IMG/VR virus record: IMGVR_UViG_3300021335_000045
Location: 1-35,920 of that record
Reading direction: 5' to 3' (one strand)
Length of the DNA: 35,920 nucleotides
Source: a virus
Positions within the stretch are counted from its first letter, which is position 1. Each line of letters opens with the position of its first letter. Below, piece by piece: positions 26,081 through 27,994 of the stretch. The translations under genes and the position numbers were made by a program. The notes under the pieces are model-generated. The model was given only the letters and a program-made list of their open reading frames with translations. It did not search any database and had not been told where the DNA came from.

Positions 26081-26313
26081 TAATAGACGACACACACGAC
26101 TTACTTACGAAAGCATACTTAGAATATTTTATTGAAAATGAAAAGTTTGAACGTAAATTATCATGTAGAACTCACGCTTCGAGCCGGAGATCTTTAAGAA
26201 GGATAATTACTTTAGCTAGACAAAGACAAAAAGAAATCCACGAGAAGTATGCCATCGAAAAGCAAATCAAAAGGCAAAGGGTTCGAGAGAGAAATAGCAA
26301 AACATCTCTCTGA
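26077..26313 (+). CDS. Small conserved-type protein following gp46, unknown function
   Basis: This 78-residue, strongly basic, probably helical protein has the pattern LTKAYLEYFIENEKFERK, a Ser/Arg-rich turn, then LRRIITLARQRQKEIHEK. Small proteins of this pattern directly after gp46 are familiar from marine T4-like phages, but no function is known to me. It starts in an ATGA overlap with gp46. Its last 65 bases overlap the following nuclease gene in another frame. The two readings share this DNA, so its C-terminal RQRVRERNSKTSL is probably not strongly constrained. Confidence 0.7.
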   Translation: MIIDDTHDLLTKAYLEYFIENEKFERKLSCRTHASSRRSLRRIITLARQRQKEIHEKYAIEKQIKRQRVRERNSKTSL

Positions 26314-26764
26314 AATGTACAAAGATTCATTTACTAGAGTTCCAGACAGTGGTGCTTTTACTGGAGGTAAGAATAATTATCGCAGAGAAACACTAACAGA
26401 AGGACAAGTTAGAGCCCATAAAGGAGATATTATACCTCCTGACGATTGGAAATACTTTAATGCAGAATGTAAAAATTATGCAGGATTCCCCTTCCATCAA
26501 TTACTCAACAAAGGCCCCATACCACAACTTGAAAATTGGCTACAACAAACACTTGAGGCAGCTGACCAAGGCGATGTAAACATCCTCTTTATGAAATTTG
26601 ACCGCATAGGCAAATATATCGCATACCAATTACCACAAAATTTCAAAACCAATAGGCACTTAGACTACACGGACAAGGCTAACAACACTTGGAGACTTAC
26701 AGGTTACAATGACTTCTTTGAATTGAACAAAGAAGCGTTTGAATCCTGTTGTACAGGCGCTTAA
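26249..26764 (+). CDS. PD-(D/E)XK-type nuclease (Holliday-junction-resolvase-like)
   Basis: The 171-residue product begins with a basic Lys/Ser tail and then KGKGFEREIAKHLSE (Glu13 and Glu15). These are followed by KGDII (Asp60) and AECKNY (Glu73-Cys-Lys75). This E...D...ExK spacing is that of PD-(D/E)XK nucleases such as archaeal Hjc-type resolvases. A VPDSGAFTGGKN loop precedes the catalytic core. In context (after gp46/47) it may process recombination intermediates or branched DNA before packaging. That role is inference. The ATG at 26249 lies inside the preceding gene with only a weak GAG upstream. The catalytic residues are visible; the exact subfamily is not certain. Confidence 0.7.
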   Translation: MPSKSKSKGKGFEREIAKHLSEMYKDSFTRVPDSGAFTGGKNNYRRETLTEGQVRAHKGDIIPPDDWKYFNAECKNYAGFPFHQLLNKGPIPQLENWLQQTLEAADQGDVNILFMKFDRIGKYIAYQLPQNFKTNRHLDYTDKANNTWRLTGYNDFFELNKEAFESCCTGA

Positions 26765-26769
26765 GGCTA

Positions 26770-27055
26770 TATACGAGACACTGTTTGATTAGGGTTGCCT
26801 AATCCATCTTGAGGTGTTGTTTGTACACAACACCGGATACTGGTGCGTCTCACTCACGATAACCCCTAAAAACCTCTAGCACTAGGAACGAAGCAGAGGA
26901 TAGTGTAAGTTTTACTTACATGATGTCGGTGTAGGTAAGGGAAAGGCAGGAGCCCTTGGGGTCGTACAAAACACCTACTTCATAGTCACGGCAAATGCAA
27001 CTCACATGAAACATTTCCTAAAAGACTTGGAACCTTTGTACAGGTTCCGTCTGAC
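26770..27055 (+). ncRNA. Candidate structured non-coding RNA in GC-rich island
   Basis: No ORF is seen here. A hand count gives 125 G/C in 280 bases (about 45%) for 26781-27060, against 14 of 60 just downstream. Visible pairings are listed next. GAGAC 26775-26779 with GTCTC 26847-26851 encloses two hairpins: stem GATTAGG/CCTAATC with loop GTTG (26787-26804), and stem GGTGTTGT/ACAACACC with loop TTGTAC (26813-26834). CCTCT 26873-26877 with AGAGG 26895-26899 interlocks with CACTA 26880-26884 and TAGTG 26901-26905, an H-type pseudoknot layout. TGTAAGT/ACTTACA with loop TTT spans 26904-26920. GTAGGT/ACCTAC plus AAGGG/CCCTT lie in 26931-26978. AGAC-GGAACCT/AGGTTCC-GTCT with loop TTGTAC spans 27023-27052. 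It matches no RNA family I recognise. Strand is assumed from the flanking operon, because hairpins look alike on both strands. Confidence 0.5.
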
Positions 27056-27135
27056 CAAAACAATCTACATGAACCATTAATTGATTCTAATTTATATAAG
27101 CTTAAAAAAATGTGTTAGAGCGTAAGCGAAAACAC
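27056..27135. other. AT-rich spacer between candidate RNA and next gene
   Basis: About 80 bases with low GC and no coding signal. The only visible element is a weak imperfect hairpin (GTGTT near 27111 with AACAC near 27131). No T-run terminator follows it. Confidence 0.4.
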
Positions 27136-27154
27136 TAATGAGCGTAGCTCATTA
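27136..27154. other. Perfect 8-bp hairpin upstream of the 274-aa gene
   Basis: Arms TAATGAGC and GCTCATTA flank the three-base loop GTA. No T-run follows, so it is not a typical intrinsic terminator on the plus strand. It ends two bases before a late-type octamer, so it could be an operator-like site, a processing site for the upstream RNA, or a transcription block. Confidence 0.4.
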
Positions 27155-27156
27155 TG

Positions 27157-27164
27157 AATAAATA
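27157..27164 (+). promoter_or_regulatory. Late-type octamer AATAAATA, start predicted at the ATG
   Basis: A 7-of-8 match to the T4 late consensus is followed by CAATT and then the ATG at 27170. With the octamer at -13 to -6, the first transcribed base is exactly the A of the ATG. No Shine-Dalgarno is present, so the message would be leaderless. Confidence 0.45.
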
Positions 27165-27169
27165 CAATT

Positions 27170-27994
27170 ATGCTAGTATCTGAAATATTATTTGAAAAAG
27201 ACATTGTAAAAAAAAGCAGTAACAGTGATAGTGATTCTACTACTCCTCCTGAAATTGGTAAGATAGGTACAGGCAGTAAAGTAGTAGGTAATGTAGGTCC
27301 TGATCCTGTTGAACCTGATGCAAAACCGACTGTTTGGTCTAATGCAAAGTCTAAATTTAAAGCTGTCTTTAGTGCGTTACGCAGGGTAGCAACTTTTAAA
27401 TTTAATGTGCTATTAGGTTTAGTCCTTGGTGCTAATAATCTTTATCGCAGTGCAAAAGAATACGGTATTATCCTGCAGATGAACAACTGCAGTAGGCGAG
27501 TACAACCCGGACATTCGGCAGAGTTTAATGGCAACATTTTTTCAAGTGAGGATCTAGTAAAAAGATTAAATCACAGGGCGTACAAAATTAAATCAGGTGT
27601 AGTTATGGAATTAGTAACTGCTTTTGGTGCAGCAGCAGGTGCAGACCAACTAATGAAATACATGCCTAGTTTAGTAAAGGTGCCTGGACTAGCTGGTTTA
27701 TTTGCAGTAGGATCAGCTGCAGCAGGTAGGGAAGGTATAGAAAAAATACAAGAAGCAATTGGACCAAGGGCTCGAAAACTTGCATGGTTAGCAAGCGATT
27801 ACATAGTTGGAGATTGGTTATCAAATTACACACTACAGATTGCTAGCGACTGCGGCAAAGTTTCTGAATCACAATTTACATTTAGTAAAGGCAGTTTAGG
27901 TTCAAAAGACGCAAGTCAAAGTCAAAAAGCCAAAAAGATAAAAGCTCTAGTAGATGAAATTTTACGAGATAACCCACAACTTGCTATCAAATAA
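27170..27994 (+). CDS. Unrecognised 274-aa late-type protein with hydrophobic helices
   Basis: I do not recognise this protein. The first about 60 residues are polar and disordered-looking (Ser/Asp/Thr/Pro-rich, with EPDAKPT). Then come a basic segment, a hydrophobic stretch FKFNVLLGLVLGANNLY (about 77-93), and two Gly/Ala-rich hydrophobic stretches around VVMELVTAFGAAAGA and GLAGLFAVGSAAAG. The C-terminus is Ser/Lys-rich and ends in a helix. It could be a membrane-interacting virion or injected protein, but that is a guess. It has no ribosome site and is preceded by an octamer that predicts a leaderless late message. Its N-terminus (MLVSEILFEKD) resembles that of the 85-aa protein at 33572. 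Its 3' end overlaps the opposite-strand frameshift extension of gp26 by eight bases. Confidence 0.75.
   Translation: MLVSEILFEKDIVKKSSNSDSDSTTPPEIGKIGTGSKVVGNVGPDPVEPDAKPTVWSNAKSKFKAVFSALRRVATFKFNVLLGLVLGANNLYRSAKEYGIILQMNNCSRRVQPGHSAEFNGNIFSSEDLVKRLNHRAYKIKSGVVMELVTAFGAAAGADQLMKYMPSLVKVPGLAGLFAVGSAAAGREGIEKIQEAIGPRARKLAWLASDYIVGDWLSNYTLQIASDCGKVSESQFTFSKGSLGSKDASQSQKAKKIKALVDEILRDNPQLAIK

Follow-up and report, generated by a model that had tools for sequence, protein, structure and literature searches.

The window (the whole stretch of viral DNA analyzed here, 35,920 nucleotides) almost certainly encodes, in a gene-free island on its plus strand, a structured noncoding RNA whose locus is conserved across a broad clade of jumbo T4-like phages. 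Taken as a whole, sequence comparison moderately favors a discrete, trans-acting structured phage RNA bearing two identical motifs for one phage-specific partner. Homology over the island places the whole RNA at 26770–27078 of the plus strand (∼310 nt, ends approximate; it is longer than that in most relatives), with the 5′ end lying just past the stop codon of the upstream nuclease gene (26764). The core model (R1) matches the window at 26840–27078 and the model of the 5′ domain (R3) at 26774–26855, the window sequence being part of both models by construction. The preliminary description, made from the window alone, had the structure begin at 26770, in agreement with the homology, and end at 27055, which is too short. 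It had also pointed to elevated GC and to four hairpins, and both are present: the GC content of 26770–27055 is 44.8%, compared with 32.0% for the whole window and 28.3% for the spacer that follows, and the island contains exactly four perfect stems that are 7 bp or longer and have loops of 3–6 nt (26787–26804, 26813–26834, 26904–26920, and 27029–27048). In 1,000 dinucleotide shuffles, the mean number of such stems was 0.08 and four was never reached. The folding energy, proposed there as a check, was better than that of shuffled sequence, but only weakly so (z = −1.5 for the plus strand and −2.5 for the minus strand). Because these z-scores are modest, energy alone leaves the case open, and it is the comparative evidence that decides. 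A simple scan of the plus strand of the window found no promoter-like or strong terminator-like signal.

To collect relatives, IMG/VR was searched with the upstream nuclease, the downstream ORF, and gp46, and then with two DNA patterns taken from the most conserved stretches. At least 252 of the 306 loci fetched carry homologues of the island; those from the IMG/VR searches match it at the DNA level and lie downstream of gp46 wherever the contig includes this gene. Group I, to which the window belongs, comprises at least 199 distinct RNA sequences. One RNA is found per carrying phage record (core model, 16 loci in 15 records), and a MAG record has two, one per contig. Genome contigs gave two matches (L307 and L308), both in one Neomarinimicrobiota MAG and both with phage genes beside the RNA; this binning, either a host signal or misbinning, says little about the host. 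A nucleotide search among cultured phages returned no relatives of substance. In phages with a gp46 ∼50–56% identical, a GC-rich gene-free island occupies the equivalent spot (group II), and its core, which differs from that of group I but is parallel to it, is supported by covariation as well. As an unbiased check, 80 loci were picked solely by the distant gp46 of phage PA5oct, none of them included in the R2 model; R2 detected the RNA in 46, always on the gp46 strand (the third group, III), and several of the other 34 are truncated, so that silence of R2 there does not establish absence. Compensatory pairing went far beyond shuffled and slid controls in three alignments. The proposal of a structured RNA was thus borne out by homologous islands with extensive compensatory changes, together with the lack of a match in Rfam 15 and of a coding gene. 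The latter was rejected as a candidate, as stop codons occur in nearly every frame and the length modulo 3 varies.

A first covariation scan (158 rows, effective number ∼127) singled out long helices, and the core was scored in alignment A1 (65 sequences) for seven helices, a to g, with 39 pairs, pseudoknots included. In this alignment, 94.6% of the cells are paired compared with 83.6% after shuffling, 286 cells are changed on both sides (87 when shuffled, at most 68 in slid registers), and the covariation score is 0.330 (0.138 and at most 0.078, respectively). Four of the seven scored helices are interlocked, helix e crossing a and d, and helix d crossing f. Helix a (26862–26867 pairing with 26957–26962), with compensation at all six pairs in A1, encloses the core, that is, hairpin b, the variable hairpin c, and strands d, e, and f. 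Hairpin b (26873–26899; CCUCU-GC/GC-AGAGG) shows compensatory changes in five of seven pairs and has a near-invariant loop containing GGAACGA; hairpin c (26903–26921) differs in length and sequence among phages, all four of its scored pairs covarying. The pseudoknot core (26928–26978), itself with compensatory changes, consists of helix d (26928–26930/26946–26948; 99.5% of cells paired, the window having only two of its pairs), helix e (26931–26936/26973–26978; 99.7%), and helix f (26938–26941/26953–26956; 97.7%). Toward the 3′ end follows the terminal hairpin g (27026–27051; UGGAACC/GGUUCCG and outer pairs), with 98.3% of cells paired and changes that are mostly one-sided. Helix h (AGUC at 26984–26987 with GACU at 27024–27027), weaker than the others and unscored, is drawn from covariation seen by eye, its strands reading UCUCG/CGAGA or UCUUG/CAAGA in relatives. 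A pseudoknot layout had already been read from the window, made of CCTCT/AGAGG and CACTA/TAGTG. The former is the conserved helix b, whereas the latter is not conserved: it can be drawn in the window, but its 3′ strand is part of another, variable hairpin, and the actual pseudoknot helices (a, d, e, and f) differ from those proposed.

The kind of mismatch tolerated in these helices gives the strand. G-U pairs outnumber A-C pairs 162 to 20, which indicates that the RNA is read from the plus strand. The same ratio bears on whether the island could instead act as DNA, for example, as an origin or a recombination hot spot with hairpins and direct repeats working in the genome. The adjoining recombination genes and the hairpin flanked by direct repeats would suit such an element; nevertheless, it is extremely improbable, as the G-U excess is explicable only by a plus-strand RNA, and interlocked long-range helices covary between distant strands.

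Ahead of the core, the 5′ domain (26774–26855) folds into a three-way junction consisting, according to covariation in alignment A3, of P1 (26775–26779/26847–26851), P2 (26787–26793/26798–26804), P3 (26805–26808/26842–26845), and P4 (26813–26819/26828–26834). Among the 18 sequences of A3, 19 of 23 pairs show double-sided changes compared with 10.5 in shuffles, and the covariation score is 0.490 compared with 0.238. P1 is the very closing helix that had been recognized in the window, and it covaries among relatives. R3 finds the 5′ domain in five loci outside the model (L418, L342, L345, L374, and L386; E 7e-12 to 6e-16), in each of which a group II core lies directly 3′ of it. Two loci with a gp46 72–73% identical to that of the window (L008 and L012, both members of A3) combine a window-type 5′ domain with a group II core, which R2 recognizes at E 1e-4 to 3e-4, the core being cut by the contig end. 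Group II-type cores with the shared 5′ junction also occur in other jumbo phages, on contigs of up to 344 kb. Since one 5′ domain is joined to two core types at one locus, the groups are treated here as a single modular superfamily, a view suggested by their synteny and by the domain and the 3′ architecture that they have in common.

In another subgroup, the 5′ domain has been catalogued before. RF01718 (Polynucleobacter-1; cut-off 37 bits) matches, with 45 to 95 bits, a 141-nt segment that immediately precedes the group II core in six loci (L349, L363, L321, L393, L394, and L329), which identifies this orphan motif as the 5′ domain of a larger RNA in that subgroup; in L363, the match lies at the same locus as the group I RNA. 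The matches span, for example, 7498–7639 in L363 and 1837–1976 in L349. The Rfam entry probably needs extending, its model leaving out both the pseudoknot core and the duplicated motif, and a possible origin may have been found for a motif that the 2010 catalogue listed from Burkholderiales and fresh water (PMC2864571). The model matches neither the window nor the rest of group I; for the window, this holds up to E = 10 in 26700–27200.

Rfam 15 contains no match at gathering threshold to the window or to members of groups I and III, and with relaxed thresholds, the window and L119 yielded chance matches only. A purine riboswitch match at 27072–27174 stays below threshold (20 bits, E = 2.5, cut-off 37 bits). 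ARAGORN was negative for tRNA and tmRNA in the window and 35 relatives, group I and II introns and known ribozymes were rejected because Rfam intron and ribozyme models did not match, and the covariance models of GOLLD, ROOL, and OLE (Rfam 15) matched neither the window nor relatives. Large pseudoknotted phage and prophage RNAs of unknown function do exist (GOLLD and ROOL [PMC12286853]; see also PMC7567579), and a known class (GOLLD, ROOL, tmRNA, tRNA, or a group I intron remnant) might have diverged past recognition. In view of the negative ARAGORN result and the silence of Rfam, for the window and L119 even at relaxed thresholds, this is highly improbable. Compared with GOLLD and ROOL, the island RNA is smaller and fixed beside recombination genes, and, unlike them, it lacks neighboring tRNA genes in the window and the 35 relatives scanned. 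In Vibrio phage ICP1, a long island likewise devoid of ORFs gives rise to an RNA of ∼800 nt, the most abundant phage transcript (PMC7567579), showing that an island of this type can yield a major RNA; it occupies a different place, the lysis cluster. Orphan structured phage RNAs as such are already known, whereas the literature searched (most subscription papers and bioRxiv lie outside it) describes neither this RNA family nor its modular build nor its pair of concerted motifs.

In group I, the gene order is the late-sigma/47/46 operon, a nuclease, the RNA, and then, encoded on the opposite strand, a baseplate gene, in line with the preliminary description, which put the island at the 3′ terminus of the 55-47-46-nuclease operon. 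gp46 is upstream in 131 of 132 group I loci with sufficient flank (a figure favored by the fact that the set was partly fetched via gp46), the baseplate gene runs opposite to the RNA in 75 of 76, and a nuclease is directly upstream in 158 of 159 (149 GIY-YIG of the SegE type, 9 PDDEXK). The corresponding numbers for group II are 34 of 36 for gp46, 29 of 29 for the baseplate gene, and 50 of 53 for the nuclease. In the window, the nuclease gene (26249–26764, plus strand), immediately upstream of the RNA, encodes a PDDEXK endonuclease (PHROG “RusA-like Holliday junction resolvase”). The two nuclease types, which have unrelated folds, are found in exchange for one another at this position (compare the window with L119, 5988–6437, and L363, 7037–7465). 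Downstream, at 27118–27160, two short hairpins (GAGCGTAAGCGAAAAC and TAATGAGCGTAGCTCATTA) and an ATAAATA separate the RNA from the next ORF, and similar hairpins are present in most relatives. This ORF (27170–27994, 274 aa) has no Pfam or PHROG match and has close homologues in only two of the fetched loci; relatives carry other unnamed ORFs there.

Such a position invites the view that the RNA is a cis-acting 3′ UTR or leader, which would stabilize the 46/nuclease mRNA or take part in its processing or, like a riboswitch or attenuator, regulate the late gene downstream. It lies directly 3′ of the nuclease gene in most loci, a covarying helix of the main group reaches back to the nuclease stop codon, and Polynucleobacter-1 was judged probably cis-regulatory in the 2010 catalogue (PMC2864571). 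However, the RNA outlasts the nuclease, being retained where this gene has been swapped for one of unrelated fold. None of the downstream ORFs tested matches Pfam, and they vary from one relative to the next; AT-rich hairpins with a late-promoter-like sequence intervene between them and the RNA. Furthermore, one group II RNA is located elsewhere, outside the usual gp46 neighborhood (L325; 330-kb contig G016, 311.6 kb). A cis element is thus rather unlikely, and the RNA probably acts in trans.

What it may act on is suggested by a short motif that flanks the terminal hairpin g, with one copy on each side. Copy 1 (27004–27010; ACUC-ACAUGAA), enclosed by helix h, and copy 2 (27067–27073; AAUCU-ACAUGAA) correspond in group I to ACTCAC[ATGAA] and AATCTAC[ATGAA], respectively, of which five variants occur; yet, the two copies are identical to each other in 139 of 139 distinct loci. 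L113 and L173 are near-identical in the RNA 5′ of copy 1, outside the variable hairpin, and in L113, both copies have changed from A to G. In group II, the motif is different in nearly every phage, and yet it is repeated around the terminal hairpin: identity within own pairs is 0.673 compared with 0.466 (0 of 10,000 permutations), even with roughly one row in four out of register in that alignment. Most group III RNAs carry either GGATAATG twice or AGATAATG twice (GG/GG and AA/AA types), with one clear mismatch at that position and several RNAs not parsed by the pattern; in a small number of RNAs, the two copies do not match perfectly. Matched copies that vary freely between phages were also seen in L033, L349, L331, L366, L430, L338, and others. 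Translational bypass, a SegE homing target, and homo-pairing of the copies were considered as explanations for the motif and dropped for want of positive evidence. Extra copies of the motif or its complement were not enriched elsewhere in three phage contigs (330, 186, and 136 kb).

Identical motifs could be equivalent cleavage or splice sites for one internal guide, as in a ribozyme or self-processing RNA; a single guide would require duplicated sites, and interlocked pseudoknots with invariant core nucleotides look ribozyme-like. This is nonetheless quite unlikely: no strand complementary to the motif was found within the RNA above control, even allowing G-U pairs, the motif changes without another matching change in the RNA (L113 compared with L173), and Rfam intron and ribozyme models do not match. 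Concerted copies are the pattern that two sites for one trans partner would produce, and we give binding of one trans partner by both sites about an even chance. Such a trans-acting RNA would be transcribed together with the early 55-47-46-nuclease operon or immediately after it and would accumulate as RNA or as an RNA–protein particle, and its two unpaired motifs would bind the same phage-specific partner, be it a cognate RNA-binding protein or the target of antisense pairing; the copies would change together because both bind it. More speculatively, and very doubtfully, the RNA could be the guide or scaffold of a phage-recombination RNP, a conserved scaffold with two short recognition sequences that are identical to each other and phage-specific, paired with the interchangeable adjacent nuclease (GIY-YIG or PDDEXK). 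If true, such an RNP beside the Rad50/Mre11-like 46/47 pair would be an addressed RNP of a kind not known before.

That hundreds of uncultured large-phage sequences keep the RNA beside recombination genes suggests that it is important to them. It is rare in evolution for a motif to vary and yet remain the same at both of its sites, and such a signature points to a partner that is specific and itself changes; identifying this partner would reveal a new role for phage RNA.

A lead among cultured phages comes from the PA5oct type of Pseudomonas jumbo phages, which have a GC-rich island of 1 kb after 55-47-46 and a Holliday junction resolvase, and before the baseplate hub, with a terminal hairpin at its 3′ end flanked by ATGTCGTA/ATGTCATA. 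R1, R2, and R3 gave no significant match in PA5oct, Sinorhizobium phage Phosso, Atu_ph07, or Vibrio 2.275.O, nor did unfiltered R2 searches of the islands in PA5oct and Phosso. As no model recognizes the PA5oct island, its kinship with this RNA remains only a lead. The island corresponds to L310, 8200–9240 (∼75.8–76.9 kb of PA5oct), is shared by near-identical relatives, and is annotated with tiny ORFs in some records and with none in others. In Phosso, a gene-free island of ∼0.8–1 kb (L311, 7500–8300) likewise adjoins a Holliday junction resolvase gene.
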